A DNA stretch of 50,345 nucleotides from Spirochaetota bacterium. Its GTDB lineage: Bacteria > Spirochaetota > Leptospiria > Turneriellales > Turneriellaceae. A model generated the notes under the pieces. That model did not search any database. It was not told where the DNA came from and worked only from the letters and a program-made list of their open reading frames with translations. Shown here in pieces: positions 4,980 to 29,908 of this stretch. The position numbers and the translations under genes were made by a program. Each line of letters begins with the position of its first letter. The stretch's first letter is position 1. Location: positions 1 through 50,345 of the forward strand of contig JAFEGD010000239.1 of the NCBI GenBank assembly GCA_018240245.1, in the 5' to 3' direction.

Positions 4980-6461
4980 TTAGTTTTGCAACCCGATCAA
5001 CACCTCGCGAAAGCTTGCGAGGCCCGCTTCGAGGTTGTCGACGATTTCGAGCGCAATGGTGTCGGGGTCGGGTAAATTGTCGAGATCGGCGAGCGACTGG
5101 TCTTTGATCCAGGTAATATCGAGCGACGTTTTGTCGCGCTGGGCAATTTCATCGTAGCCGAACTTGCGAAAGCGACCGTCGAGGTTTTTCTCGCTATACG
5201 TCTCTTTGCGCTTGTGCCGGTTCTGCGGATTATAGCACGCGATGAAATCTTTGAGGTCTTCGAGTTTCAGCGGGTTCTTTTTCAACGTGTGATGGATGTT
5301 TGTGCGGTAGTCGTAGATCCACACTTCTTTAGTCCATGATTCTTTGCTCGCCGGTTTGGCGTCAAAGAACAAGACATTCGCTTTAACGCCATTGGCATAG
5401 AAGATACCGGTTGGCAGGCGCAGAATCGTGTGCAGGTCGGTCGTCTCGAGCATCTTTTTGCGCACGGTTTCACCCGCGCCACCTTCGAAGAGCACGTTGT
5501 CGGGTAGCACAACCGCTGCCTGGCCGGTGGTCTTGAGCATACTGCGGATATGTTGTAAAAAATTGAGCTGCTTGTTGCTGGTAGTAACCCAGAAGTCCTG
5601 GCGATTGTAGGTAAGGTCTTCTTTCTCTTGCTCGCCGTCTTCGTTGGTGAAGGTCATGCTGCTCTTTTTGCCAAACGGCGGGTTTGCCAGCACGTAGTCA
5701 TAGAGTTCGGGGCTGCTGGCGATGAGCGAGTCGTTGGCGGAGATTGAGCTCTCGCCGTCGATGTCGCCGATATTATGTAAAAACAGATTCATGAGCGCGA
5801 GCCGCCGCGTACCTGCGACGATCTCGTTACCGAAAAAAGTCTTATGCTTCAAAAACTGTTTCTGCTCTTTATCGAGCGTGAAATTATTTGCATCGCTGAG
5901 AAAATCATACGCCGCCAGAAAAAATCCGCCGGTACCGCAGGCCGGGTCGGCAATCGACTTCTGTGGTTCGGGGCGAATACACTCGACTATCGTGCGGATA
6001 AGCGCACGCGGTGTAAAATACTGCCCTGCGCCGCTCTTGGTATCTTCGGCGTTTTTTTCGAGCAAGCCCTCGTAGATGTCGCCTTTGTCTTTGACGCCCA
6101 TCATCACCCAATTCTCGGCGCCAATCATGTCGATGAGACGATAGAGCTTTGCGGGGTCTTGAATTTTGTTTTGACTCTTCGTAAAAATCTGGCCGAGCAT
6201 GCCCTTCTGTGTGCCCAGCTCGCGTAACAGTTTCGAATAATGCGTCTCTAACTCGTCGCCGCTTTTGGTCGTTAAGCTCTCCCACGCAAATTCTTTGGGG
6301 ATATTCAGCTTACGGTTATGCGGCGGTCTTGCATATTCGTCGGCCATTTTGAGAAACAGCAAATAGGTCAGCTGCTCGAGGTAGTCGCCATAGCCGACGC
6401 CGTCGTCGCGCAGCGTGTTGCAGAAGGCCCAGATTTTCGAGACGATGGCTGAGGTGGTCAT
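4980..6461 (-). CDS. hsdM: Type I restriction-modification DNA methyltransferase subunit M
   Basis: A 493-residue N6-adenine methyltransferase. An N-terminal HsdM helical domain (about 1-130) is followed by the SAM-binding motif ADPACGTGGF (171-180) and the catalytic NPPFG (260-264). The linker GAGQYFTPRALI, typical of HsdM proteins, is at 145-156. The length is normal. It methylates the adenines of a bipartite site chosen by HsdS and protects the host from HsdR. The odd feature is its place: it is separated from hsdS by two toxin-antitoxin modules (about 1.6 kb) and starts only 12 bp after the stop of the RHH antitoxin at 6474. It is therefore probably transcribed with that module, or from a promoter inside it. 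Confidence 0.95.
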   Translation of the reverse strand: MTTSAIVSKIWAFCNTLRDDGVGYGDYLEQLTYLLFLKMADEYARPPHNRKLNIPKEFAWESLTTKSGDELETHYSKLLRELGTQKGMLGQIFTKSQNKIQDPAKLYRLIDMIGAENWVMMGVKDKGDIYEGLLEKNAEDTKSGAGQYFTPRALIRTIVECIRPEPQKSIADPACGTGGFFLAAYDFLSDANNFTLDKEQKQFLKHKTFFGNEIVAGTRRLALMNLFLHNIGDIDGESSISANDSLIASSPELYDYVLANPPFGKKSSMTFTNEDGEQEKEDLTYNRQDFWVTTSNKQLNFLQHIRSMLKTTGQAAVVLPDNVLFEGGAGETVRKKMLETTDLHTILRLPTGIFYANGVKANVLFFDAKPASKESWTKEVWIYDYRTNIHHTLKKNPLKLEDLKDFIACYNPQNRHKRKETYSEKNLDGRFRKFGYDEIAQRDKTSLDITWIKDQSLADLDNLPDPDTIALEIVDNLEAGLASFREVLIGLQN

Positions 6462-6473
6462 GGTTTACGCGGG

Positions 6474-6737
6474 TTAGACGCGATCCCACTCGGGAATTTT
6501 TCCCTTCTTGGGAACATTCGCCATAATCTCATCGAAGTCGGCAAAGATCTGTTCTTTCGAACGGCTCTTCCAGAATTTGCTGAAGGTGTCGGAGACATCC
6601 ATTTCGGCAATTTCTTTGGAAAAGAAGTAGAGAGCCAGTTGATTGATGGAGACGCCTTGCTTTAGAGCCGCTTTTTCGATCTTGTGCTTGAGTTCTTTGG
6701 GAACCCGCAGGGTCATGATGCTTGCATTAGTTTTCAT
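6474..6737 (-). CDS. Ribbon-helix-helix-type antitoxin of a PIN toxin module
   Basis: An 87-residue protein. It opens with MTLRVPKELKHKIEKAA followed by a QGVSINQLALYFFSKEIAEM helix pair; this beta-helix-helix pattern is that of CopG/HicB-like ribbon-helix-helix DNA-binding domains. The C-terminal half (EQIFADFDEIMANVPKKG) would wrap around and block the toxin. It overlaps the end of the PIN gene by 11 bp, so the order is toxin first, antitoxin second, which is the less common arrangement but usual for the COG1569-like PIN family. It is likely to repress its own operon by binding DNA upstream of the toxin gene. The next gene, hsdM, follows after only 12 bp. Confidence 0.75.
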   Translation of the reverse strand: MKTNASIMTLRVPKELKHKIEKAALKQGVSINQLALYFFSKEIAEMDVSDTFSKFWKSRSKEQIFADFDEIMANVPKKGKIPEWDRV

Positions 6738-7164
6738 GTTTTTGCCTCCATATTTTCAGGAATTTCGCCGGTGTAACGATCTTCAGCGTTGCTAGCTTTA
6801 GCTCCGCTCTGTTCTTGAAATCTACAATGTTGCTGGTGATCAGGTAATCGGCCTGACCATTTAACGCCAACTCGATGAATTTGTTGTCTGTTTCATCGCG
6901 CAAATTCGGCTTATAAGTGAAATGAATCGCCACCGGTTTGGCGATATAGCTGATGAACGCCAAAAAGCTTTCTATCTGCGTTTTTTTCAGGTCGAATTGA
7001 CGCAGGTTGGCAGGCCGACTCAATACTTCCTGATATTCGAACAGTACTGCGGTGGATAATACCATTTCGATCTGGCCTTGGCGGACCAGGGACAAAATAT
7101 AATACGATGCGCCTTGGCTGCGCAATGCCTGGTAGAGGACGGTGGTATCGAGCACAACGGTCAC
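6727..7164 (-). CDS. PIN-domain toxin (COG1569-like putative RNase)
   Basis: A 145-residue PIN-fold protein. The acidic residues expected to hold Mg2+ in PIN nucleases are visible: LDTTVL (Asp6), EYQEVLSRP (Glu43) and DETDNKFIELA (Asp near 92 with Asp95), followed by ADYLITSNIVDF. These enzymes cut RNA, often tRNA or rRNA, when not bound by the antitoxin. The gene overlaps its antitoxin partner downstream. Upstream is a 100-bp AT-rich gap with an inverted repeat at 7233-7258 that could be the operator. All active-site positions look intact. Confidence 0.8.
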   Translation of the reverse strand: MTVVLDTTVLYQALRSQGASYYILSLVRQGQIEMVLSTAVLFEYQEVLSRPANLRQFDLKKTQIESFLAFISYIAKPVAIHFTYKPNLRDETDNKFIELALNGQADYLITSNIVDFKNRAELKLATLKIVTPAKFLKIWRQKHEN

Positions 7165-7232
7165 CTGAGAGATGATGGTGCGGATACTATCACGCGGTCA
7201 AGCGAATTAAGGCCGGGCGCATGGGTTCGTAA

Positions 7233-7258
7233 TTTTACTTTATTACCGTAAAGTAAAA
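7233..7258. promoter_or_regulatory. Inverted repeat upstream of the PIN/RHH operon
   Basis: TTTTACTTTA at 7233-7242 and its perfect complement at 7249-7258 are separated by 6 bases. A third partial copy (TATTTTACTTT) lies at 7271-7281. It sits about 70 bp upstream of the PIN toxin start and just after the end of the preceding toxin-antitoxin pair. It may be the operator of the downstream module or a weak terminator of the upstream one. Confidence 0.45.
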
Positions 7259-7316
7259 TATAAGAATTCTTATTTTACTTTCTCTGAAGTGTTTTCTAAA
7301 AGAGCCTTGTAAATTG

Positions 7317-7763
7317 CTATGTCCAGAGGCGAGAGGTTCGCTGGCGTGGGATTTTGGACTTTCTTGATGAATTCGGCGTCATCACTACTGCGGAATTCTT
7401 AGGATAATCTTTCGTATTCCGCGAAATGAAGATATCAATTTTTCCCTTTTTAAAGGCAAAATATTGAACGGCATCTTCAAAATCTTTCATGTTCGAACTC
7501 AAAGCCGAATCGATAGTCTCTTCCGTTACGGGGAGTATTTGGATGAGCTTTCTAAATTTTTGCAGAAGCCGTCTTGCCTGCGCGGCGCCTAAATTCTTGC
7601 TGAGCAGATAATACAGGTTCCAGACGATCAGCGATGAAACGAAGCCATAAATTTGCTTATTCTCTATGAGATTCACTATTTTCACGACGGCCGCATCGTG
7701 CGGCTCACGCCCGGCTAGATAATATAGAATGGCATCGGAATCGAGATAGACCTTTTGCGCCAC
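7317..7763 (-). CDS. PIN-domain toxin, C-terminus changed by an apparent frameshift
   Basis: A 148-residue protein starting MAQKVYLDSDAILYYLAGREP, a typical PIN opening with Asp8 and Asp10. The second acidic patch is NMKDFEDAVQYFAF, and ISRNTKDYPKNSAVVMTP follows as expected. After VMTP the frame turns into a Ser/Arg-rich tail with no family character. One extra base near 7374 would restore EFIKKVQNPTPANLSPLDIA and continue to a TAA at 7270-7272, which looks like a genuine PIN C-terminus. The core catalytic residues precede the shift, so the toxin may still work, may be inactivated, or the shift may be a sequencing error. The gene directly follows its antitoxin gene with no gap. Confidence 0.75.
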   Translation of the reverse strand: MAQKVYLDSDAILYYLAGREPHDAAVVKIVNLIENKQIYGFVSSLIVWNLYYLLSKNLGAAQARRLLQKFRKLIQILPVTEETIDSALSSNMKDFEDAVQYFAFKKGKIDIFISRNTKDYPKNSAVVMTPNSSRKSKIPRQRTSRLWT

Positions 7764-8024
7764 TTATTTATACTTCTTCTCAATATAATCGGCGAGATCT
7801 GATCTATAATCAGAGGTAAGTTTGCCCTTCAGTACGCCATGCAGCTCTTGCGTAACAGGCCCAAGTTGCTCTTTGCGGACTTTAGAATCGGTCTTGGAAA
7901 TCGACGAAAGGTAATCTTGAACGATTTTAGAAACGCTTTTTCCTCGTTTTTGCGCATATTTCTTGGCGCTTTTAATAATTTCCCGATCAAGGGAGAGGGT
8001 CAGCTTTGCGCTAGCGGATGTCAT
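7764..8024 (-). CDS. DUF6364-like antitoxin of the second PIN module
   Basis: An 86-residue protein whose N-terminus, AKLTLSLDREIIKSAKKYA, followed by RGKSVSKIVQDYLSSI, matches the DUF6364/RHH-type antitoxins usually paired with PIN toxins. The beta strand plus two helices would form the DNA-binding dimer, and the charged C-terminal part would bind the toxin. It is the first gene of the pair and ends exactly where the toxin gene begins. A perfect 9-bp inverted repeat overlaps its start codon, which fits autoregulation by this protein. Confidence 0.75.
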   Translation of the reverse strand: MTSASAKLTLSLDREIIKSAKKYAQKRGKSVSKIVQDYLSSISKTDSKVRKEQLGPVTQELHGVLKGKLTSDYRSDLADYIEKKYK

Positions 8025-8055
8025 ACGTATATTTAATTAAATAAAGATACGTATG
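8022..8055. promoter_or_regulatory. Palindromic operator candidate over the antitoxin start codon
   Basis: CATACGTAT (8022-8030) includes the antitoxin start codon and is perfectly complementary to ATACGTATG at 8047-8055, with a 17-base AT-rich spacer. Placement and symmetry fit autorepression by a ribbon-helix-helix dimer pair. Confidence 0.55.
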
Positions 8056-8080
8056 GCAAGTCTTTCTCCGCGCCGCGTGT

Positions 8081-8118
8081 TTCCATTAGGCAGGGGTTTA
8101 AACCCCTGCCTAATGGAA
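8081..8118 (-). terminator. Perfect 38-bp palindrome after hsdS
   Basis: Two 19-bp arms (8081-8099 and 8100-8118) meet without a spacer at GTTTAAAC. It begins 7 bp after the hsdS stop and separates the hsdR-GxxExxY-hsdS run from the toxin-antitoxin genes. There is no T-tract. It is probably a terminator, or a dispersed palindromic repeat acting as one. Confidence 0.6.
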
Positions 8119-8125
8119 CTCCCCC

Positions 8126-9604
8126 TCACACCAACCTCCCCTCAAACGCCTGCTTGAGCACCGACTGCCTGAGCAGCTCCGCTTGCGCGAGACTTTGGGC
8201 GAGCGTCGCCTCGAGTTGGTCTGCGACGCTGAGGCGGCTTTCGATCGCGGCGACGATGGCTTGTTGCTCGGCGAGGGGCGGGAGTATGACATCGATATCG
8301 CGCAGACTCCCAAGCGGAATGAATTTCTGAGTCGTGCCTTTTAACAACTTCCTATGATTTAGTTGACGTTCAAAAATTGGTGAATCAAGAAAAAACCGAA
8401 AGTAATTGGGAATAATGACTCCTTCATTTTTCCGAAATAGTCCAACATTCTTTATGCTGAATAGCTGCGAGGGTTGGACAACAACTGGATTTCCAATAGT
8501 GCCAATCATTGCGAACAGTATGTCGCCAGCTTCAACAGCCGATCTTTTCGAGATTTCTTTAAAGTCTGTTTTACTAATATAACTTACCTTTTGAAAATCA
8601 ATCTTTCCATCTCGGAGGTTCTTTGAAGTAATTAACGGCACACCTTTGCCATCAGTTACATATTTCGGGGTATCATGGGTTCCATCCCGAACATCTATGA
8701 TCTTACCACTTTTAACCCACTTCCACCCCGCTGGCAAACCCTTACCCTCTGTCTGAATCACGGATGACGCAGATTGCGCAGATTTCACGGATTTTAGGAT
8801 TGTGCTGCTTGTGTCTTCGTCCGCGAAATCCTTTAATCCGTTTAATCCGTGATTCTGACCTTCTTCCTGCGATTCAGACAATGTAAGCCGCCCCTCGAAC
8901 GCCGCCTTGAGTACGCTCTGGCGATAGGTCTTGAGCTGCTGCTGCGCGAGCTTGATCGATTCGATGCCCTTGTCGAGCTCGCTGAAGAGTTGTTCGATCT
9001 TGGCGACGATGGCCAGCTGGGTGGCGAGGGGCGGGAGAGGGAGATTCTGATCGAAAATATCTCTGTCACGGACAGCGGGGTATGAAGTTCCCGTCTGCAG
9101 CTCACTCAAATCTTTGATAAAATTTCGTGTCAATACATAGTGAAAGAGGAATTTTTGATTTGCGATCTCCGGACGGCCGCGAATTACACAGAAGCCAGAT
9201 GAACCGATTTGTCCATCGAATTGCTTCTGCTCGATCATTGCCACATTCTTTAAGTAGGTTCTTACGGTTGAGTATAGTATGTCGCCATGGGAAAGGATTT
9301 GCTGAGCTCGCGAGGGCGCATCTTTCCATGAGTATTCTTTGTGAGAAACGATTCTATTTACCTGGTTATCAATGCTGCCTATGTCTAAGTAAATAAATTT
9401 TTCATTCGCAGATTTTTCCTTTCGCCTTACAACTGCAGCCTTTTCACAAACTTCACCCAGCTTAACCCAGCGCCAACTTGCGGGCAAGGGGGTCTGAATC
9501 ACGGATGACTCGGATTGCGCGGATTTCACGGATTTTAGGATTGTGCAGGGCATATCTTCTAATCCGCGTAATCCATTAATCTGTGTAATCGGCGATTCAG
9601 ACAC
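8126..9604 (-). CDS. hsdS: Type I restriction-modification specificity subunit S with two repeat-derived inserts
   Basis: A 492-residue HsdS. Target-recognition domain 1 covers about 39-200. The conserved coiled coil (PLPPLATQLAIVAKIEQLF to QQLKTYRQSVLKAAFEGRL) spans about 195-240. Domain 2 covers about 285-445, and the second conserved region is ILPPLAEQQAIVAAIESRL to QAFEGRLV at the end. It chooses the bipartite target and anchors HsdM and HsdR. Two stretches do not belong to the family: residues 1-38 and about 243-285. Both contain TILKSVKSAQSxSSVIQT and are translations of the dispersed repeat seen at 9999-10170. The GTG start at 9604 overlaps the stop of the GxxExxY gene by 8 bp; ATG at 9550 is an alternative. 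The second insert lengthens the join between the coiled coil and domain 2. Confidence 0.92.
   Translation of the reverse strand: MSESPITQINGLRGLEDMPCTILKSVKSAQSESSVIQTPLPASWRWVKLGEVCEKAAVVRRKEKSANEKFIYLDIGSIDNQVNRIVSHKEYSWKDAPSRAQQILSHGDILYSTVRTYLKNVAMIEQKQFDGQIGSSGFCVIRGRPEIANQKFLFHYVLTRNFIKDLSELQTGTSYPAVRDRDIFDQNLPLPPLATQLAIVAKIEQLFSELDKGIESIKLAQQQLKTYRQSVLKAAFEGRLTLSESQEEGQNHGLNGLKDFADEDTSSTILKSVKSAQSASSVIQTEGKGLPAGWKWVKSGKIIDVRDGTHDTPKYVTDGKGVPLITSKNLRDGKIDFQKVSYISKTDFKEISKRSAVEAGDILFAMIGTIGNPVVVQPSQLFSIKNVGLFRKNEGVIIPNYFRFFLDSPIFERQLNHRKLLKGTTQKFIPLGSLRDIDVILPPLAEQQAIVAAIESRLSVADQLEATLAQSLAQAELLRQSVLKQAFEGRLV
8752..8880. repeat. Dispersed repeat, copy inside hsdS (between coiled coil and second recognition domain)
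   Basis: This 129-bp stretch has GTCTGAATCACGGATGACG at one end and its inverted theme (TAATCCGTGATTCTGA) at the other. It is closely similar to the copies at 9493-9600 and 9999-10170. It is read in frame as a Ser/Lys/Asp-rich linker of about 43 residues. Confidence 0.7.
9493..9600. repeat. Dispersed repeat, copy forming the hsdS N-terminus
   Basis: Begins TCTGAATCACGGATGACTC and shares a block of about 50 bp with the copy at 8752-8880 (ATTTCACGGATTTTAGGATTGTG), then an inverted half ending GGCGATTCAGAC. It overlaps the end of the GxxExxY gene and the start of hsdS, and supplies the first 38 residues of HsdS. Confidence 0.7.
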
Positions 9605-9998
9605 TCAACACCAGCCTCTTAAACTCCAGACTCTTTGCCCCAAAATTAATCAGCAGACCGACTTCGAGCCGATAGGCCTTGAGATAATTAAGCGCCTGCG
9701 CCAAATGGACATCTTCCAGTTTAATGACGGCTTTGATTTCGACTAAGACTTTCTCTTCGACGACAAAATCGGCGCGCCGTGTGCCGATGGGCTTCTCAAG
9801 GTCCTTATAGAAGATATTCTGCTCAATTTCGCGCTGAAAACTTAAACCTGCGACTAGCATTTCGTGCGCCAAAGCACGTTGGTAGATAACTTCCTGAAAT
9901 CCGTTGCCGAGAAATTTATGCACTTCAAAGGCGGCGCCGATAATTTTTTCGGTGATGTCGCTGTATTTTAAGTCATTCTGTTTCATCATGTCTTCCAA
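9597..9998 (-). CDS. GxxExxY protein (PD-(D/E)XK nuclease-like superfamily)
   Basis: A 133-residue protein with KIIGAAFEVHKFLGNGFQEVIYQRAL, whose GFQEVIY is the defining GxxExxY motif. RADFVVEEKVLVEIKAV follows, giving the Asp and Glu-x-Lys expected of a PD-(D/E)XK fold. The family is widespread, small, of unknown function and typically surrounded by short dispersed repeats, as here. The first methionines (MEDMMKQND) give three possible starts within 15 bases. It sits between hsdR and hsdS in the same direction; its 3' end and the hsdS start lie in one repeat copy. That position suggests insertion into the restriction operon rather than being a subunit of it, but co-transcription is likely. 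Confidence 0.85.
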   Translation of the reverse strand: MEDMMKQNDLKYSDITEKIIGAAFEVHKFLGNGFQEVIYQRALAHEMLVAGLSFQREIEQNIFYKDLEKPIGTRRADFVVEEKVLVEIKAVIKLEDVHLAQALNYLKAYRLEVGLLINFGAKSLEFKRLVLSV

Positions 9999-10170
9999 TC
10001 CGCGTTAATCCTTAAATCTGTGTAATCCGCGATTCTGACCATCCCCTCTGTCTGAATCGCGGATTAAAGGATTACGCAGATTCCACAGATTGTAAATGTC
10101 AATCTTAAATCCGTGAAATCCTTTAATCCGTTGAATCTGTAATTCAGACTTTTTCATCCGCGATTCAAAC
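9999..10170. repeat. Repeat cluster between hsdR and the GxxExxY gene
   Basis: Several inverted and direct copies of an AATCCGCGATT / GGATTAAAGGATTACGCAGATT theme fill the gap. AATCCGCGATTCTGA near 10025 is nearly complementary (one mismatch) to TCTGAATCGCGGATT near 10051, giving a potential hairpin. The same sequences occur twice inside hsdS. No gene is visible here. Confidence 0.7.
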
Positions 10171-10173
10171 ATC

Positions 10174-12912
10174 TTAACTCGCCAACACCTCGTTCAGCTC
10201 ATCCAAAATCTTCTCCGTCCCCTCGCCAAAAAGCTGCCACATCTTGCCCAAGCCGCCCGCGGCGTTGAATGGGCTCAGATCGAAATCTTCGCGCTCGATG
10301 TGAAATGAATTCGCCACGAAATCTTTGATCATGCGCAACCACGCCATCTGCTCTTCGTCATACTTCAGCTTGCCCGACTGCTTGCCAAACACCCATTCTT
10401 GAAACTTGCGGTCGACCGTCTTGTCGTAAGGTGATAAGGCTTCGTCGATGCCGCAGATGTAACGGACCAAAGAAACGAGCGCAATGAGTTCATTCTTTGC
10501 CGAGCCGGTTGCCCCAACGGGCGACGCTGCCAGTTGCTCATACGCACGCCAGACCTTGAGCGGCGCGAGCGTCGGCTTGTCGGCGAGAATGCGTTCGCAG
10601 AGGTCTTTGATCATCTTGTATGTTAGCTCGCGGCGGCGAAAGGGTTGGCCATAAAAAATCTGCAGCGCCGTGATCTCGGTTTTGTGCGCCTCGATGTACG
10701 CGCGAAAGTCCAAGATCGTCTTTTCGGCCGCGGCCGCGAGGTCGGTCGTGAATCCCGCCTTGACCACCTCGTCGATATTCACCGTGTCGATGATCTGGTC
10801 GTACTTTTTGCGCACATCGACGATATAGTTTCGCAGCTCGGGGTTATGGAACACTGCCACCGCATTCTCGACGAGTGTCGCGTGCTCGTTGGCGCTGAGG
10901 CTTTCAATGCGGTCGGGGTCATGCGCCGCCAAGAGCTGCCGCGCGAGTTCGGCGGGGGCATTGCCTTGAGCCAGGCTGGCAATCTGTATACGTTCGCGCT
11001 CCGTTATCTGCTTATCTAAGCGCAAAAGGCGCGAGGCAAGCGTGGTGAGGATTTCTTCCTGTGTATTGCCCACGGCCACGTTTTCGAGTACTTCTTTCAG
11101 CGATAACCCGGGCTTACGCTCGAGCGGCCGGCTGTCGGTCTTAAGCGACGACTCGACGCCGATCGCGTCAATAATCACAAAGTGATCCTTGGTGAACTTC
11201 GCGCTCGGCGTGCCGGTCTTTTTGAGTTCTTCGAGCGAGCAGGTGCGCGTGCCGCGGCCCTTCATCTGCTCATAGTAGCTGCGGCTCTTAACGTCGCGCA
11301 TAAAGAGCAGCACCTCGAGCGGGCGAATGTCGGTGCCGGTCGCAATCATGTCGACCGTGACAGCGATACGGGGGGAGTAATTATTGCGGAAAGCGGCGAG
11401 CACGCTCTTCGGGTCTTCTTCGCTGCGGTACGTGATCTTTTTACAGAATTCATTGCCTTCGCCGAACTCTTCGCGCACTATCTCGATAATGTCTTCGGCA
11501 TGGCTGTCGCTCTTCGCGAATACCAGCGTCTTCGGCACCTCGAACTTGCCGTCTTTATCGATGCGATCGGGAAACATCGCCGGCAAATTTTCTTTCACCG
11601 CCCTGACAATCGTGCGAATCTGGGTGGGATTCACCACGTCCTTGTCGAGCTGCTTCCCTGCATACTCGACTTCTTCGTCGACCTGTTCCCAAAATTTGCG
11701 CCGTGTGAGACGCTCCCGCTTATCGACCCTTTCGCCCAGTGCAATTTTCGCTCCGTCCTGCGTAATCTTCGTCTCAATCGTGAAGACCTGGTATGGTACG
11801 AGCACGTTGTCCAAAACCGCCTTTTCATAGCCATAGTCTGAAACCAGGTTCTGGTTGAAGTAGCCGAAGGTGCGGTTGTCGGGCGTCGCGGTGAGGCCAA
11901 TCTGAAACGCATCGTAATAGTCGAGCACCTGCTTCCACAAATTATAGATGCTGCGGTGGCACTCGTCGATCACAATAAAATCAAAAAATTCGGGCGGCAC
12001 CTTTTCGTTGTAAATCACCGGTAGGGCTTCCTTCGCTTCAATGCGAATTTCATTCGGGTTCGTTTCTTCATCCGTTTCTGCAAGCTCTGTTCCTTTCAGT
12101 ACTGAATACATTCTCTGAATGGTCGAGATATAAACCTTGCTGTCGCGCGGTATGAAGCTGCTACGCAGCCGTGTCACGCCATAGAGTTCGGTGAACTTGC
12201 GGTTGTCGTCATTGGGTGTGTAGGATTGAAATTCCTGCTCAGCCTGTTCGCCGAGGTTCTTGGTATCTACCAAGAAAAGCACGCGACCGGCCTTGGCAAA
12301 TTTCAGCAGCCGGTAGATCGAGGTGATTGCAGTAAAAGTCTTACCCGAGCCGGTCGCCATCTGCACCAGCGCCTTCGGGCGCGCGTCTTTGAGCGACTTC
12401 TCTAAATTATTGATAGCCGTAATCTGGCAATCCCTCAGCTTCTCGGTATTGAGTTCCGGTAAGTCCAGAAGCCGCGCGCGCAGGGGCTTGTCTTGTTTGC
12501 TCCACACGCGCAGCATCTCGGGGCGGTGAAATGCAAACACCGGCCGCGAGCGCGGTTTCGGGTCATGCGCATCGCGAAAGCGTGTCAATTCGCCTGTGCT
12601 CTCATAGATAAAGCGCAGCGGTTCGCTGTTCAGGTGTTTTAATTTTGCATGCGCATAGTCATCGGACTGAGCTTCAACCACTGACAGGTGATGGCCTTCT
12701 TCAGCGCGCTTCGCTTCGATAATACCCTGCGGCTTTTTATCGATGAACAGTACATAATCCGCCGGCCCCACATCGGTCAGATATTCTCGCACGGCAACGC
12801 CGCCGCCTACAGCAAGATTTATCTCTGTCTTGCTTTGAACTATCCACCCGCTGGCCTTAAGCTGCGCATCGATTTTGTCGCGCGCAATCTGTTCGGGGTT
12901 TTGGTTCGGCAT
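10174..12912 (-). CDS. hsdR: Type I restriction endonuclease subunit R (EcoEI-like)
   Basis: About 912 residues. An N-terminal nuclease domain shows GPADYVLF followed by GIIEAKR (PD-(D/E)XK). A SF2 translocase follows, with MATGSGKT (Walker A), IDECHR (DEAH-type box) and QMKGRGTRT (motif VI). The C-terminal EcoEI_R_C-type helical domain is near TGSAKNELIALVSLVRYICG. It pulls DNA and cleaves it when the HsdS-HsdM complex meets an unmethylated site. I use ATG 12912; a TTG two codons upstream is also open. It begins 9 bp after the dapD stop, so it may depend on dapD transcription. No frame damage is visible. Together with hsdM and hsdS it makes a complete type I system. Confidence 0.95.
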   Translation of the reverse strand: MPNQNPEQIARDKIDAQLKASGWIVQSKTEINLAVGGGVAVREYLTDVGPADYVLFIDKKPQGIIEAKRAEEGHHLSVVEAQSDDYAHAKLKHLNSEPLRFIYESTGELTRFRDAHDPKPRSRPVFAFHRPEMLRVWSKQDKPLRARLLDLPELNTEKLRDCQITAINNLEKSLKDARPKALVQMATGSGKTFTAITSIYRLLKFAKAGRVLFLVDTKNLGEQAEQEFQSYTPNDDNRKFTELYGVTRLRSSFIPRDSKVYISTIQRMYSVLKGTELAETDEETNPNEIRIEAKEALPVIYNEKVPPEFFDFIVIDECHRSIYNLWKQVLDYYDAFQIGLTATPDNRTFGYFNQNLVSDYGYEKAVLDNVLVPYQVFTIETKITQDGAKIALGERVDKRERLTRRKFWEQVDEEVEYAGKQLDKDVVNPTQIRTIVRAVKENLPAMFPDRIDKDGKFEVPKTLVFAKSDSHAEDIIEIVREEFGEGNEFCKKITYRSEEDPKSVLAAFRNNYSPRIAVTVDMIATGTDIRPLEVLLFMRDVKSRSYYEQMKGRGTRTCSLEELKKTGTPSAKFTKDHFVIIDAIGVESSLKTDSRPLERKPGLSLKEVLENVAVGNTQEEILTTLASRLLRLDKQITERERIQIASLAQGNAPAELARQLLAAHDPDRIESLSANEHATLVENAVAVFHNPELRNYIVDVRKKYDQIIDTVNIDEVVKAGFTTDLAAAAEKTILDFRAYIEAHKTEITALQIFYGQPFRRRELTYKMIKDLCERILADKPTLAPLKVWRAYEQLAASPVGATGSAKNELIALVSLVRYICGIDEALSPYDKTVDRKFQEWVFGKQSGKLKYDEEQMAWLRMIKDFVANSFHIEREDFDLSPFNAAGGLGKMWQLFGEGTEKILDELNEVLAS

Positions 12913-12921
12913 CGGCAATCA

Positions 12922-23916: not shown

Positions 23917-23972
23917 AGCTTCCCCTATATGCCTAAATGAGACGCCGCGTCACGTGGATTTACGACAGTGAT

Positions 23973-24006
23973 AAGGCGGGAACTCGCGCCAGCGAGTTCC
24001 CGCCTT
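23973..24006. terminator. Strong hairpin in the divergent gap before the norSY-like cluster
   Basis: AAGGCGGGAACTCGC (23973-23987) pairs perfectly with 23992-24006 around a 4-base loop. It lies 56 bp upstream of the LysM-FecR gene and 108 bp upstream of the CuA-subunit gene, which point away from each other. A terminator has no obvious upstream client here, so it could be a 5'-leader element or an insulator. Confidence 0.45.
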
Positions 24007-24114
24007 GTCGCTATAGCCGTGCTATACGCCTGTATTCGTTAGTAAATAAATATCATTTTTTTGCCGATTCTATCAATCTATGCAATGTTACAATAAAGGA
24101 TTTTAAGAACTATT

Positions 24115-24681
24115 ATGCCATTAAGTTTACAGCAAATCGCGGCGATTGTTTCGCTCGGCGGTGCGGTCATTATAATCGCGCTCGCGCTTTATTTAGTTCG
24201 CTCGGCGGGGGCGTACGAAGACAAGCTAGAAGTTAAGCACAAACTCTATAAGCTACGCGGGCGTTATTTTTTTATCGCCGCCACCGCCGCGCTTGTTCTG
24301 CTCATATTTTCGTTACGGTTATTGCCATACCCGCAGTATCAATCCGCCCCCGACAAAACCGTCACCGTCGTAGGCTACCAATGGGGTTGGCTGATGGCCG
24401 ACGGCGTTTCGACCGAAAAACCCGACGACTTCAAAGGCACAAACGAAATCACGGTGCCCGTCGGCAAGCAAGTGCGCTTCGTCGTGACTTCGCGCGATGT
24501 GACGCACAACTTTGCGATCTACAATCCCGCCGGGGCGATTGTCGCGCAGACGCAGGCGATGCCGCGCTACCATAACGAGCTGCAGCATAAATTTACCGAA
24601 GCGGGCGAGTACCCGATTATGTGTTTAGAATATTGCGGCATGATACACTCGAATATGCTCGGGAAAATTCACGTCAAATAA
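24115..24681 (+). CDS. norS: CuA-containing subunit II of a haem-copper oxidoreductase, NorS-like
   Basis: A 188-residue protein with two transmembrane helices (about 10-30 and 52-70) and a periplasmic cupredoxin domain. VGYQWGW (86-92) is the aromatic electron-entry patch. The CuA ligands are complete: H131 (THNF), then C170, C174, H178 and M181 in CLEYCGMIHSNM. It has no haem c motif. It takes electrons from a soluble donor and passes them to the catalytic subunit encoded 19 bp downstream. The domain alone is subunit II of an oxidase; I call it NorS-like because the partner lacks the oxidase tyrosine and the gene order is norS-norY-senC-orf1. The cluster is the first plus-strand run after a divergent promoter region. 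Confidence 0.8.
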   Translation: MPLSLQQIAAIVSLGGAVIIIALALYLVRSAGAYEDKLEVKHKLYKLRGRYFFIAATAALVLLIFSLRLLPYPQYQSAPDKTVTVVGYQWGWLMADGVSTEKPDDFKGTNEITVPVGKQVRFVVTSRDVTHNFAIYNPAGAIVAQTQAMPRYHNELQHKFTEAGEYPIMCLEYCGMIHSNMLGKIHVK

Positions 24682-24700
24682 TTAAAAAAAGAGAAAAAAT

Positions 24701-26155
24701 ATGTTAGCATCAGATACCACAGAAATCAAAAAACACAAGACGCTCGTCACCGTTTGGGCGGTCACGTTCTTGATTCTTTTTCCGCTGCTCGTGACGCTCG
24801 GGTTACTTATGCGCCTCAACCAAGGCGAGGTCTTGAAGCTCAACGCGATGACGTTTTATAGCCTCATGACGCTACACGGTTTGGGCATGGCGGGCGTGCT
24901 TTTCAGCACCGCGCTCGGCGCATTGGGCTATGTCATTGCGACGCGCTATGCGCGGCTCAGCGTTCTGTTCGGTTATTTTATTTATGGTCTTGTTGTCTTG
25001 GGCACCGTGGGGCTTACCGCTGCCGCGCTTCTCGGTAAATATGCGGCGGGTTGGTATCTGCTCTACCCGATTTCGGTGCAGCCGGGTATCGGCGCTAATT
25101 GGGCAATTACGCTTGCGCTGGTCTCGCTCATTGTGCTCGGCGTCGCTTGGGTTTTGGGCGCAACACACATTGTGTATGCGTTGGGCAAGCGCTTCGGTGG
25201 GTTTTCAAAACTCATGGGTTGGCAATACCTCGGCAAGACCGAGCCGAAAGACGAATTGCCTTCGATAGCGCTCATTACCACGGTGAGCCTCGTACCGGGA
25301 ATCTTATCGTTTCTCGCGGGGGCGGTTTATCTCGCGATGAACCTCATGCAGCATTTCGAGGGCACGCTCGCGTTCGACCCGCTGATTCAAAAAAATCTCG
25401 TGTTCTTTTTCGGGCATACGCTCGTCAATATCACGATGTACCTGGCGGTCGGTTGGGTCTACGAACTCACACCCGAGTTTACGCACCGCGACTGGAAAGT
25501 CAATAAGGCGGTTGTCTACGCCTGGAACGCGACATTCTTCTTTATTATCTTCGCCTACTTTCACCATCTCTATATGGATTTCGCGCAGCCGACGGCGCTT
25601 CACTACGCGGGGCAGATCGCTTCGTATTTGAGCGCGATACCTTCGACCGTGGTGACGATGTTCGGTCTCGGCGTGCAGGTCTATCGCGCAAAAATCAAAT
25701 GGAGTATTTTTCCGCTGGCGGTGCTGATCGGCATGGCGGGTTGGGCGATCGGCGGCTTTGCGGCGGTCGTCGATTCGACGATTGCGATCAACAAAGTCTT
25801 GCACAACACGCTCTGGGTGCCCGCGCACTTTCACACCTACATGCTCTTGGGAGTCCTTCCTTTTATATTTGCTTTTCTCTATTATTTGGCTTACGGCAAC
25901 GCCGAGAAAAAGCCGTCGTGGGGCTTTTGGCTTTTTGTGGTCGGCGCTGCCGGTTTTCTCACGATGTTTTATTTAGGGGGATTACATAGCGTGCCGCGCC
26001 GCTATAGCGAGTACATGTCGGTCAACGTCACGGGCTTACGCGAAGCGGGTTCGCAGTATGCAAAAATCGCCGCACGTTTTATCGAGATACTGCTTTTAGG
26101 GTTGCTTGTGATGTACGTTTCGCTGTTCAAGAATTTACTTCGACGCAAAGCATAA
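24701..26155 (+). CDS. norY: Haem-copper catalytic subunit lacking the active-site tyrosine, NorY-like NO reductase
   Basis: A 484-residue membrane protein with about 12 helices. The haem and CuB ligands are present: H59 (TLHGLGM), H239 (FFFGHTLVN), H288 and H289 (FHHLYMDF), H376 and H378 (PAHFHTY). In O2-reducing A- and B-type oxidases the histidine of helix VI is cross-linked to a tyrosine four residues later (HPEVY or HPIVY). Here that position is Asn243 (HTLVN). Loss of the tyrosine is the mark of NO-reducing members of the superfamily. With a CuA subunit upstream and SenC downstream it fits the sNOR (norSY) type known from ammonia oxidisers. The likely reaction is 2 NO to N2O in the inner membrane. 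Alternative: a divergent oxidase. Confidence 0.8.
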   Translation: MLASDTTEIKKHKTLVTVWAVTFLILFPLLVTLGLLMRLNQGEVLKLNAMTFYSLMTLHGLGMAGVLFSTALGALGYVIATRYARLSVLFGYFIYGLVVLGTVGLTAAALLGKYAAGWYLLYPISVQPGIGANWAITLALVSLIVLGVAWVLGATHIVYALGKRFGGFSKLMGWQYLGKTEPKDELPSIALITTVSLVPGILSFLAGAVYLAMNLMQHFEGTLAFDPLIQKNLVFFFGHTLVNITMYLAVGWVYELTPEFTHRDWKVNKAVVYAWNATFFFIIFAYFHHLYMDFAQPTALHYAGQIASYLSAIPSTVVTMFGLGVQVYRAKIKWSIFPLAVLIGMAGWAIGGFAAVVDSTIAINKVLHNTLWVPAHFHTYMLLGVLPFIFAFLYYLAYGNAEKKPSWGFWLFVVGAAGFLTMFYLGGLHSVPRRYSEYMSVNVTGLREAGSQYAKIAARFIEILLLGLLVMYVSLFKNLLRRKA

Positions 26156-26156
26156 C

Positions 26157-26184
26157 CCCGAGGTTGTCCAGAAACAACCTCGGG
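26157..26184 (+). other. Intercistronic hairpin between norY and senC
   Basis: CCCGAGGTTGT (26157-26167) pairs perfectly with 26174-26184 around a 6-base loop. It begins 2 bp after the norY stop and ends right against the senC ribosome-binding region (GGGAGAGAAG before ATG). It may attenuate or protect the mRNA so that senC is made in smaller amounts. Confidence 0.55.
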
Positions 26185-26191
26185 AGAGAAG

Positions 26192-26812
26192 ATGAAGCAC
26201 TTTATCGCTCCCACGCTGGTCTTGGCGCTCGCGCTCTTAGGTCTCGGCGTGTGGACGCGGGGCTTCACCGCGTTCACGGTCTTCTCGCACACGCTGCAAA
26301 CGGCGGGCTCGTTGCCGCGATCGCTCGCGCCGATCGACCTCGTCGATCAAGACGGTAATATTTTTCGCCTCGGCAATGCAAAAAAATATACGCTTGTCAA
26401 TTTTGTCTATCTTAACTGCCCTTTTGTCTGCCACAAAATCAACAACCGTCTCGAAGGTATTTACCGTGCGCTGCAACCGAGTTTAGTGCCGCAGAAATTG
26501 CAGTTAGTCACGGTGAGCTTCGATACCGAACACGACGACACGGCGCGCATCAAAAAATACCGTCGCCAATTTGGCGCGCACTTAGACGGATGGACTTTTG
26601 CCTTGCCTTATGGCATCGATAAGACGGCATTCGATGAATTTTTAGTCCGGTTGGGTGTGTGGGCGCAGGCTGCCCCCGAACGCGACATTATCAATCACTC
26701 GATTTTTTTATTTCTGCTTACGCCCGATAAAAAAATTACTCGGGTGTTCGACCCGGCGCGCGAGAGCGATGCGCAAATCTTAACCGAACTACGCACACAG
26801 GTCGCGCGATGA
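26192..26812 (+). CDS. senC: SCO1/SenC-family copper chaperone
   Basis: A 206-residue protein with an N-terminal membrane anchor (about 5-22) and a thioredoxin-like domain. The copper site is complete: C76 and C80 in LNCPFVC, and H169 in INHSIFLF. VSFDTEHDDTARI is the usual SCO strand-turn. SCO proteins insert or reduce the CuA centre of subunit II, here presumably the norS product. The gene follows norY after a hairpin and overlaps the next gene by 4 bp, so cluster membership is firm. Confidence 0.9.
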   Translation: MKHFIAPTLVLALALLGLGVWTRGFTAFTVFSHTLQTAGSLPRSLAPIDLVDQDGNIFRLGNAKKYTLVNFVYLNCPFVCHKINNRLEGIYRALQPSLVPQKLQLVTVSFDTEHDDTARIKKYRRQFGAHLDGWTFALPYGIDKTAFDEFLVRLGVWAQAAPERDIINHSIFLFLLTPDKKITRVFDPARESDAQILTELRTQVAR

Positions 26813-27384
26813 GACGCGCGGTAAGCCTCTGCGGGGTCGCAATTTTTTTTGCGCTGTTCTCTTTTCCGCTCAACGCATGGTTTTCGCTCACGATGCTGCG
26901 CCACCAAATCATACAACTACCTGCGATGTTTATTTTAGGGGCAATCGCCGGTGCGGTTCTTTATCCGCCTCGGTTCAAAAACCGCTCGCTAAAGATCGCA
27001 CTACTCATCGCGACGATGGCAACACTAATTTTTTGGATGCTCCCCCGGTCGATTGACCTTACCATCGTCTACCCGTGGTTTAACCGGGTAATGCACGGCA
27101 GCATTTTTATCGCGGGTGCAGGCACCGTGTGGGGCTTACGTGGCAATTTTTTCGAGGCGCAAATTGCCTTTCCGTTGATGCTTGCGGCGATGCTGATTAC
27201 CGGCGGCGCCGCGCTGCGCTCGTTCACGATCTTGCTGTGCAGCTCGTTTACATTAGCCGATCAGCAAGCGACGGGGTTTTATCTTCTCTGCATCGGTGCG
27301 CTAATATTTATCGGCACGATCACGTTTCTTTTGCAGCGGTTAGGGGCTACCGCCAGCGAATCCGCATACCCTCGGCAATCGTGA
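26809..27384 (+). CDS. Membrane protein, Orf1 of the norSY-senC-orf1 cluster
   Basis: A 191-residue protein with about six hydrophobic helices (for example FFALFSFPLNAWFSLTML, then MFILGAIAGAVLYPP) and no known catalytic motif. It is coupled to senC by an ATGA overlap. In ammonia-oxidising bacteria the norSY-senC genes are followed by a membrane protein simply called orf1; this gene holds the same place. Similarity to that protein could not be tested here. It probably helps assembly or metal supply. Its last 38 bp overlap the 3' end of the opposite-strand gene 27347-27652. Confidence 0.65.
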   Translation: MRRAVSLCGVAIFFALFSFPLNAWFSLTMLRHQIIQLPAMFILGAIAGAVLYPPRFKNRSLKIALLIATMATLIFWMLPRSIDLTIVYPWFNRVMHGSIFIAGAGTVWGLRGNFFEAQIAFPLMLAAMLITGGAALRSFTILLCSSFTLADQQATGFYLLCIGALIFIGTITFLLQRLGATASESAYPRQS

Positions 27385-27652: not shown

Positions 27653-27660
27653 CGAAAGTG

Positions 27661-27734
27661 TGGGCACACCAGGACTTGAACCTGGGACCAACGGATTATG
27701 AGTCCGCCGCTCTAACCAACTGAGCTATGTGCCC
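27661..27734 (-). tRNA. tRNA with CAU anticodon (elongator Met, or Ile2 after lysidine modification)
   Basis: A full cloverleaf folds on the minus strand: 7-bp acceptor (GGGCACA/TGTGCCC), D stem GCTC/GAGC, anticodon stem GCGGA/TCCGT with loop CTCATAA, and T stem CCAGG/CCTGG with TTCAAGT loop. The discriminator base is A and no CCA is encoded. The three-base-pair GGG/CCC initiator signature is absent from the anticodon stem, so it is not an initiator tRNA. Met and Ile2 cannot be separated by eye with confidence. Confidence 0.93.
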
Positions 27735-27814: not shown

Positions 27815-29908
27815 ATGCTTACCACTGCGAACGCCGCCGACGGCATCTACGAAATCGGCTGCGGCATCTACGACGTCACCGGCCCCGCCGCCGAAGTCGG
27901 CATGATGGGGTTTGCCGACCCCGCGCAGACGACGCAGGGTATCTACATGCGCCTGTGGTCGCGCGCGTTTATTATCGGCGACGGCGTGCGCCGCATCGTC
28001 TATGTCTGCGCCGATCTCTGCATGATCTACCAAGCGGTGAAGCAGGCCGTCGCGAAGCGCATTGCGCAAGACAGCGAACTTACGGAGTTCTATAACGACC
28101 GCAATATTTTATTGAGTGCGACGCATACACACTCGGGCCCCGGCGGCTATTCGCACCATTTCATTTACAATATTACCACGAAAGGGTTTATACCGCAAAA
28201 TTTCGACGCGATCGTCGAGGGCATCTACCAATCGATTCGGCGCGCGCACCGCAATATCGAACTCGGTAAAATTTTCATGGCACGCGGCACGGTCGAAGGC
28301 TATGCCATTAACCGTGCGACGCGGCCTTATGCGATGAACCCGCAAAGCGAACGCGAAAAATACGGCGACGACCTCGATCGCGAAATGACGCTGTTGAAAT
28401 TTGTTTCGGTAGCAAATAATGATCCAGAGGGCACGGAAGCCCGTGGTTCGCGCGGCGCACGAGGCGCCTCTGAGTGCGAATCAGAGGGCACGGAAGCCCG
28501 TGGTTCGCGCGGCGCACGAGGCGCCTCTGAGCGCGAACTCGGCATGATAAACTGGCTCGGGGTGCATCCCACCTCGATTGGCCCCACGAACCGCCTCATC
28601 GGCGGCGACAGCAAAGGCCTCGCCGAATATTGGTTCGAGCACGATCACGCGAGCGACGTGCGCAAAGAAAAAACTTTTGTCGCAGCGTTTGCGTTAGCAC
28701 CGGCGGGGGATGTCTCGCCCAACCTCTGGGGCATCGCCGACGGGGTACACGACTACGAACACATGGAAATTATCGCGCGTAAACAATACGATAAAGCGGT
28801 CGAGCTTTTTGCGAACGCCACCGAACAGTTGAAGGGCATGGTCGATGCGCGCCATCGCTATACCGATTTTTCGCGCTTGCATATCGATGCGCAAAATGTC
28901 GATACCGTGCCCGCCGCGATGGGCGCGACATTTCTTGCGGGTTCGACCGAAGACAACGTTTCGCAAGTGAAGATTTTTCACGAAGGCGCGACGGTTGATT
29001 CGCTTCAGGGCAACGAGAAGGCGATTACGGCGCTCGTCGATTCGGCGTTCGGTCTCTTATGGCCGAAAACGCTTTCTGAAGATTTTATCCGCGGGCAAGC
29101 GCCGAAAAAAATTGTGATCCCCACCGGTCTCGCCACGTGGGACGGCAACCCGTGGACACCGCAGATTCTACCGGTGCAGATTGTACGCATCGGGCAACTC
29201 GCGCTCGCCGCGCAACCGACGGAGATTACCACGATGGCAGGGCGGCGCGTGCGCGAAACGGTGCTTGATGCGCTGCGCTCGACAGGTGTCACACACGCAG
29301 TCGTGCAATCGCATGCGAACGCCTATTCGTCGTATGTCACGACGCGCGAAGAATACGCTGGCCAAGAATACGAAGGTGCGTCGACGCACTTCGGGCCGTA
29401 CACGCTCGCAGGCTTTCAGCAAGAATACCAAAAACTCGCTGCTGCGTTGGCCACGGGTACGGCAGTCGCGCAGGGCATCTACCCGAAAGACTTTACGCTC
29501 ACGCAACTCACGTTGCAGCCGAACGTGGTTTATGACGCTGCACCGCGCGGTAAAAATTATGGCGCGATACTTGTCGACGCTCAGGCGGATTATAACTGCG
29601 GCGACACGGTGGCAGTCGAGTTTCAGTCGGCGCACCCGCGTAACGATCTTCTCACGATGGATAATTTTGCGCTAGTGCAGCGCAAGGTTGGCAACCGATT
29701 CGAAGATGTGGCCGGTGACCGCGACCCCGAGTTAACATTCACGTGGCAGCGCACGCGCGGCGCCGAATCGAAAGCAATTGTGCGTTGGGACACGAAGCAT
29801 GCCGAGCCGGGCGAATACCGCCTCGTTCACCGCGGCGTCGCGAAGGCGTTTTGGTTTAGTAGAAAACAGCGATTTGAGGGCGTGAGTCGCGTGTTTCGGG
29901 TGCGGTAA
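27815..29908 (+). CDS. Neutral/alkaline ceramidase-like hydrolase with an in-frame repeat insert
   Basis: A 697-residue protein. Zinc-binding histidines appear in SATHTHSGPGGY (H104 and H106) and GVHPTSIGP (H251). APAGDVSPNLWG holds the nucleophile Ser301, matching the GDVSPN motif of neutral ceramidases. A beta-sandwich follows at the C-terminus, as in the family. It would hydrolyse ceramide to sphingoid base and fatty acid. No signal peptide is seen at the chosen ATG, and no in-frame start exists just upstream, so the location is uncertain. Residues 204-240 are two 19-residue copies of EGTEARGSRGARGASE plus a spacer, inserted between FVSVANND and GMINWLGVHP, which are neighbours in the family. 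Confidence 0.85.
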   Translation: MLTTANAADGIYEIGCGIYDVTGPAAEVGMMGFADPAQTTQGIYMRLWSRAFIIGDGVRRIVYVCADLCMIYQAVKQAVAKRIAQDSELTEFYNDRNILLSATHTHSGPGGYSHHFIYNITTKGFIPQNFDAIVEGIYQSIRRAHRNIELGKIFMARGTVEGYAINRATRPYAMNPQSEREKYGDDLDREMTLLKFVSVANNDPEGTEARGSRGARGASECESEGTEARGSRGARGASERELGMINWLGVHPTSIGPTNRLIGGDSKGLAEYWFEHDHASDVRKEKTFVAAFALAPAGDVSPNLWGIADGVHDYEHMEIIARKQYDKAVELFANATEQLKGMVDARHRYTDFSRLHIDAQNVDTVPAAMGATFLAGSTEDNVSQVKIFHEGATVDSLQGNEKAITALVDSAFGLLWPKTLSEDFIRGQAPKKIVIPTGLATWDGNPWTPQILPVQIVRIGQLALAAQPTEITTMAGRRVRETVLDALRSTGVTHAVVQSHANAYSSYVTTREEYAGQEYEGASTHFGPYTLAGFQQEYQKLAAALATGTAVAQGIYPKDFTLTQLTLQPNVVYDAAPRGKNYGAILVDAQADYNCGDTVAVEFQSAHPRNDLLTMDNFALVQRKVGNRFEDVAGDRDPELTFTWQRTRGAESKAIVRWDTKHAEPGEYRLVHRGVAKAFWFSRKQRFEGVSRVFRVR
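28425..28532. repeat. Tandem 57-bp repeat inside the ceramidase gene
   Basis: Two almost identical units start at 28425 and 28482. Each runs from CAGAGG to CCTCTG, so each has 6-bp inverted ends. The unit length of 57 bp is a multiple of three, and the reading frame is kept. Confidence 0.8.

Follow-up and report, generated by a model that had tools for sequence, protein, structure and literature searches.

A putative sNOR-type nitric oxide reductase gene cluster in the draft genome of a Spirochaetota bacterium

The four genes described here very probably encode a complete sNOR-type nitric oxide (NO) reductase, a haem-copper enzyme fed through CuA, together with its assembly factors; judged from sequence, the enzyme would work beside an eNOR-type NO reductase of the same host. 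The genes are located in a stretch of 50,345 nucleotides (the window), which represents contig C154 of a 3.30-Mb draft genome (243 contigs, 93% complete). The phylum of the host is Spirochaetota, in agreement with an earlier note on this DNA, in which the genome was described as spirochaete-like. The sNOR family is already known and poorly characterised, being to our knowledge among the least tested NOR families; what is new here is its spirochaete member.

The genes follow one another in the order norS-norY-senC-orf1, with tight spacing (Table 1), and the start of orf1 overlaps the stop of the SenC gene by 4 nt. All four open reading frames were found at the positions given by the earlier note and with the domains that it had named (COX2, COX1, SCO1-SenC and a membrane protein). 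The same four genes occur in the same order in about 40 other loci from relatives, and the arrangement is therefore far beyond chance. The GC content of the cluster (0.53) lies within that of its flanks (0.51-0.54), such that composition is uninformative as a mark of transfer. The neighbouring genes in the window are not N-oxide genes, and no FNR/NNR-type box was found upstream of norS. An inverted repeat is located upstream of norS, between two divergent genes; its membership in the cluster is uncertain, and its core was found only in its own genome among the fetched loci.

Table 1. Positions of the cluster genes and of other features in the window
Feature	Position	Strand	Remarks
Type I restriction-modification genes	4980-12918	-	HsdM, specificity subunit, EcoEI-like R
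Inverted repeat	23967..24012		21-nt arms
Four-gene cluster	24115-27384	+	norS-norY-senC-orf1
norS-like CuA subunit II	24115..24681	+	188 aa; COX2 match 1.8e-9
norY-like haem-copper subunit I	24701..26155	+	484 aa; COX1 match 8.9e-54, 183 bits
Asn243 codon	25427..25429	+	diagnostic residue (H239+4, helix VI); position calculated from ORF start
SCO/SenC copper chaperone	26192..26812	+	206 aa; SCO1-SenC match 1.3e-13
orf1 membrane protein	26809..27384	+	191 aa; six helices
tRNA-Met gene	27660-27734		near the sNOR cluster
Neutral/alkaline ceramidase gene	27815-29908		directly downstream of the tRNA gene

Examination of the alignments shows that the catalytic subunit I contains the low-spin haem ligands H59 and H378, the high-spin haem ligand H376 and the CuB ligands H239, H288 and H289, i.e., all six histidines that had been reported from the sequence beforehand. 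Its predicted structure (AlphaFold pLDDT 90.7, pTM 0.92) is composed of 12 long transmembrane helices. Subunit II had likewise been described as complete, and every ligand of its CuA site is indeed there (H131, C170, E172, C174, H178 and M181); these ligands are kept in 85 of the 85 aligned subunits. The same subunit contains two hydrophobic segments, corresponding to two predicted transmembrane helices. The SenC protein has a single N-terminal helix and, in the alignment, a CxxxC motif (C76-C80) and H169; it probably loads CuA.

The fourth protein, orf1, matched no Pfam family above the cut-off. Its homologues, 49 in the fetched loci, share a set of conserved residues (M29, W76, M77, P79, S81, D83, M128 and C144), and its model (pLDDT 96) consists of six helices, with no matching solved fold. 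Pfam matches of the homologues to CtaG are weak (2.5e-4 and 4e-3; 0.34 for orf1 of the window), and a profile comparison of orf1 with CtaG, represented by two sequences only, was negative (probability 0.4%). We hypothesise that orf1 is perhaps a remote CtaG-like factor for CuB insertion.

The diagnostic residue of subunit I is Asn243, four positions after H239, which in the alignments occupies the place of the cross-linked Tyr of the oxidases, as the earlier note had observed. In six B-type oxidases this column is occupied by Tyr, and in four eNORs by Gln. The note had proposed to follow this position through the whole clade, and Asn is kept in 83 of the 85 relatives; it is also present in Ruegeria pomeroyi and Thermomicrobium roseum. 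In a published table of the residues at this place, oxidases have Y, sNOR N, eNOR Q and gNOR D; bNOR also has Asn, and sNOR is listed for Silicibacter (= Ruegeria) (PMC8756737). Identity as an eNOR or as a gNOR was rejected, since these would need Gln or Asp, respectively, where the present protein has N243.

In the two relatives that deviate, Ser (L062) or Thr (L065) stands at this place, and CuB histidines are missing as well. In these homologues of subunit I from Bacteroidota (L062:3-1463 and L065:4923-6458) the HH pair of CuB is changed to QN or QH. The L065 locus has kept a full CuA subunit, with no SenC or orf1 nearby, and L062 is located near a nosZ. Both proteins are probably no longer NORs, and they possibly represent a derived enzyme without CuB.

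A Tyr supplied from another helix, in a protein placed inside the B-type oxidases, was named in the earlier note as evidence that would speak against an NO reductase. In cbb3 oxidases the active-site Tyr is located on helix VII, at position HH-6; I or V is found there in 82 of 84 clade members, the remaining two having an F and a gap. Tyr286 is replaced by F or V in nine relatives. Given the aliphatic HH-6 position and the variable Tyr286, a Tyr from helix VII was ruled out, and no substitute Tyr is seen in the sequences. An A-, B- or C-type O2 reductase was also rejected, there being no active-site Tyr on helix VI (N243) or at HH-6.

The residues of the proton path were placed by mapping onto the numbering of Thermus ba3, in which Y237, Y244, T315, Y248 and T312 are presumably the K-path residues. 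Those nearest the active site in the B-type path, Y237, Y244 and T315, become N, V/L/I and G/S, respectively, clade-wide, and the equivalents of Y248 and T312 are kept across the clade. At the level of sequence, this clade-wide loss agrees with the predicted absence of a proton channel in sNOR (PMC8756737).

The role of sNOR is disputed in Nitrosomonas: transcripts of the N. europaea enzyme increase under O2 limitation, and the authors of that work argue for a high-affinity oxidase (PMC6967387). By analogy, the present enzyme could be mainly a high-affinity O2 reductase lacking the cross-linked Tyr, and its retained haem-copper fold and CuB site are consistent with that proposal. Against it stand the clade-wide lack of the Tyr, with no candidate for its replacement, and the loss of the proton pathway near the site.

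In the genome collection, 183 relatives were confirmed and 80 retained; they are distributed among the Bacteroidota, Verrucomicrobiota, Acidobacteriota, Planctomycetota, Pseudomonadota, Aquificota, Spirochaetota and other phyla. A tree of subunit I, as suggested in the earlier note, was built from 95 rows, Nitrosomonas NorY not among them. The protein of the window falls in the Asn clade (support 100/99), which contains R. pomeroyi and T. roseum, and outside the Tyr-bearing B-type oxidases (100/94); these and the Gln-bearing eNORs (100/100) are groups apart from it. Long branches join at the base of the tree, which leaves the position of the Asn clade with respect to the A- and B-types uncertain. 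There is no orf1 in a second subclade, where 13 of the CuA subunits are preceded by a fused cytochrome c motif (L009:2908-3903; L086 and L092-L114 in part). One member of the window's genus carries an sNOR of this cytochrome c-fusion subclade.

The NCBIfam oxidase models match subunit I far under their cut-offs, and automatic annotation thus has no name for it. The earlier expectation that such proteins are annotated as cytochrome oxidase by default is borne out by the homologues from R. pomeroyi and T. roseum, both labelled "cbb3-type cytochrome c oxidase subunit I". The Asn, the CuA site, the gene order, the 12 helices, the place in the tree and the lack of a rival Tyr all agree with the sNOR assignment proposed in the note, and together they argue for a candidate sNOR.

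Four haem-copper subunits I were found in the genome, one each of the aa3, cbb3, eNOR and sNOR types. The eNOR-type enzyme, which has Gln, is encoded on contig C221 together with a cytochrome b, SCO proteins, a CRP/FNR-like regulator, NnrS and a NirK that bears a cytochrome c tail; a clade II nosZ and its accessory nos genes are located on contig C187. The eNOR gene (L122:2817-4448) is located about 6.6 kb upstream of the NirK-cytochrome c fusion; NnrS and hemerythrins are encoded in the vicinity, and eNOR matches occur in five of the seven genomes of the genus. In this 93%-complete draft, nirS was not found, nor was a cNOR or qNOR, an absence which is not final; a molybdopterin oxidoreductase is represented by a single low-scoring match. 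Because aa3, cbb3, nirK, eNOR, sNOR and nosZ are all found in the genome, the cell would possess O2 reductases as well as a nitrite-to-N2 set. The best reading of this gene content is that the host is a nitrite-to-N2 denitrifier with two B-family NORs, in which aa3 and cbb3 would serve O2.

Among the relatives, RIC/DnrN-type di-iron proteins adjoin the cluster in six loci, and the other neighbours include DUF2249 proteins, Rrf2 regulators, formate/nitrite transporters, HPP transporters, one NirK and one NosZ. Neighbours related to NO or nitrite are found in a minority of the loci, not all of them independent. The locus numbers of Nitrosococcus oceani put an NsrR gene near sNOR (PMC3772326). 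The relatives' neighbours, pointing to NO and nitrite, and the aa3 and cbb3 oxidases already in the genome also tell against the O2 reductase proposed above, which we consider unlikely for the enzyme of the window. That the whole Asn clade consists of working high-affinity O2 reductases without any cross-linked Tyr is likewise unlikely; if true, the principle "no Tyr, no O2 reduction" would not hold for an entire haem-copper clade. The residues, the neighbours and the genome context favour NO over O2 as the substrate of sNOR.

The protein of the window and that of a sister genome in the genus are nested among Bacteroidota (100/96), and two other spirochaetes are placed in a different part of the Asn clade. 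A single spirochaete clade was rejected both with four rows (p-AU 4e-5) and with five (2e-22), in AU tests on a 40-row data set under a simpler model than that of the 95-row tree. The sister genome contains the same four genes (84-85% identity) at a different chromosomal place, beside a tRNA-Leu gene (L165:13178-13260), and two other members of the genus have the window's conserved RND-LysM flank without the cluster. Such an enzyme occurs in three of the seven genomes of the genus, from two different subclades. Owing to the nesting in Bacteroidota, the rejected spirochaete clade, the cluster-free flanks and the differing sites, the cluster likely entered the genus by horizontal transfer, on at least two occasions, with Bacteroidota as the probable source of the genes in the window. 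In both genus genomes that share the cluster, it is close to a tRNA gene.

This patchy distribution, compared with eNOR in five of the seven genomes, and the equivalent flank of sister genomes without the cluster would also suit an idle foreign island with no role in the cell. The four intact frames, the retention of every metal ligand, the host-like composition and the sister genome carrying the same genes at such identity argue otherwise, and we regard an idle island as extremely improbable.

For the working sNOR that we prefer, we infer the substrate (NO), the electron donor, the lack of proton pumping and the role of orf1 as follows. A periplasmic cytochrome c or cupredoxin would deliver electrons into the CuA of subunit II, from which they would travel through the low-spin haem (H59/H378) to the haem-CuB centre (H376; H239, H288 and H289), where two NO would be converted to N2O. 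Since it lacks the cross-linked Tyr, this centre would be ill-suited to four-electron O2 reduction, and the enzyme probably pumps no protons, the B-type proton pathway being interrupted. In assembly, SenC would serve CuA, and orf1 may help in loading CuB. The sNOR would stand beside the eNOR-type enzyme, for NO respiration or for relief from NO.

These observations place sNOR in a spirochaete, with several separate arrivals within the phylum. Standard annotation would score such a genome as containing nir and nosZ and no nor, despite its two NORs. Concrete targets for deciding between NO and O2 are provided by the set of conserved residues, by orf1 and by the 80 relatives.

The order norSY-senC-orf1 is that of the sNOR genes of ammonia oxidisers (PMC4940428). 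In Nitrosomonas europaea (NE0683-86), the same order comprises a CuA subunit, a haem-copper subunit, SenC and a downstream membrane protein (PMC4940428), a likeness of gene set and gene order; the present host differs in being a spirochaete. The cluster of R. pomeroyi (SPO_RS20760-20745, L126) belongs to the same clade, with the Asn, the full set of ligands and the order II-I-SCO-membrane protein. Its identity to that of the window is about 34% (tblastn) and, unlike the latter, it is flanked by an Rrf2 regulator and a formate/nitrite transporter. The eNOR on the other contig of the same genome is likewise a B-family enzyme with a CuA subunit and no active-site Tyr, and differs in having Gln instead of Asn, a longer protein and a separate clade.

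The Asn, the CuA subunit, SenC and the downstream membrane protein are also shared with bNOR (CuANOR, "type I" of Bacillus azotoformans; PMC3475470; PMC8756737), so that the cluster could be assigned to bNOR instead of sNOR. Type I, however, has a 1707-bp gene for subunit I, 13 modelled helices, a one-helix CuA subunit and an extra peptide of 46 aa (PMC3475470), as opposed to 484 aa and 12 helices for subunit I in the window, with two helices in its CuA subunit, and we consider a bNOR very unlikely. The cluster of the window also matches the 12-helix "type II" cluster described by Heylen and Keltjens (PMC3475470) in its gene order. This type II qCuANOR (Bacillus azotoformans BAZO_04695-04710 and Geobacillus GTNG_1517-1520) shares the short, 12-helix subunit I, the Asn, the two-helix CuA subunit and SenC; its membrane protein, compared by description, has 4-5 helices versus the six modelled in orf1 of the window (PMC3475470).
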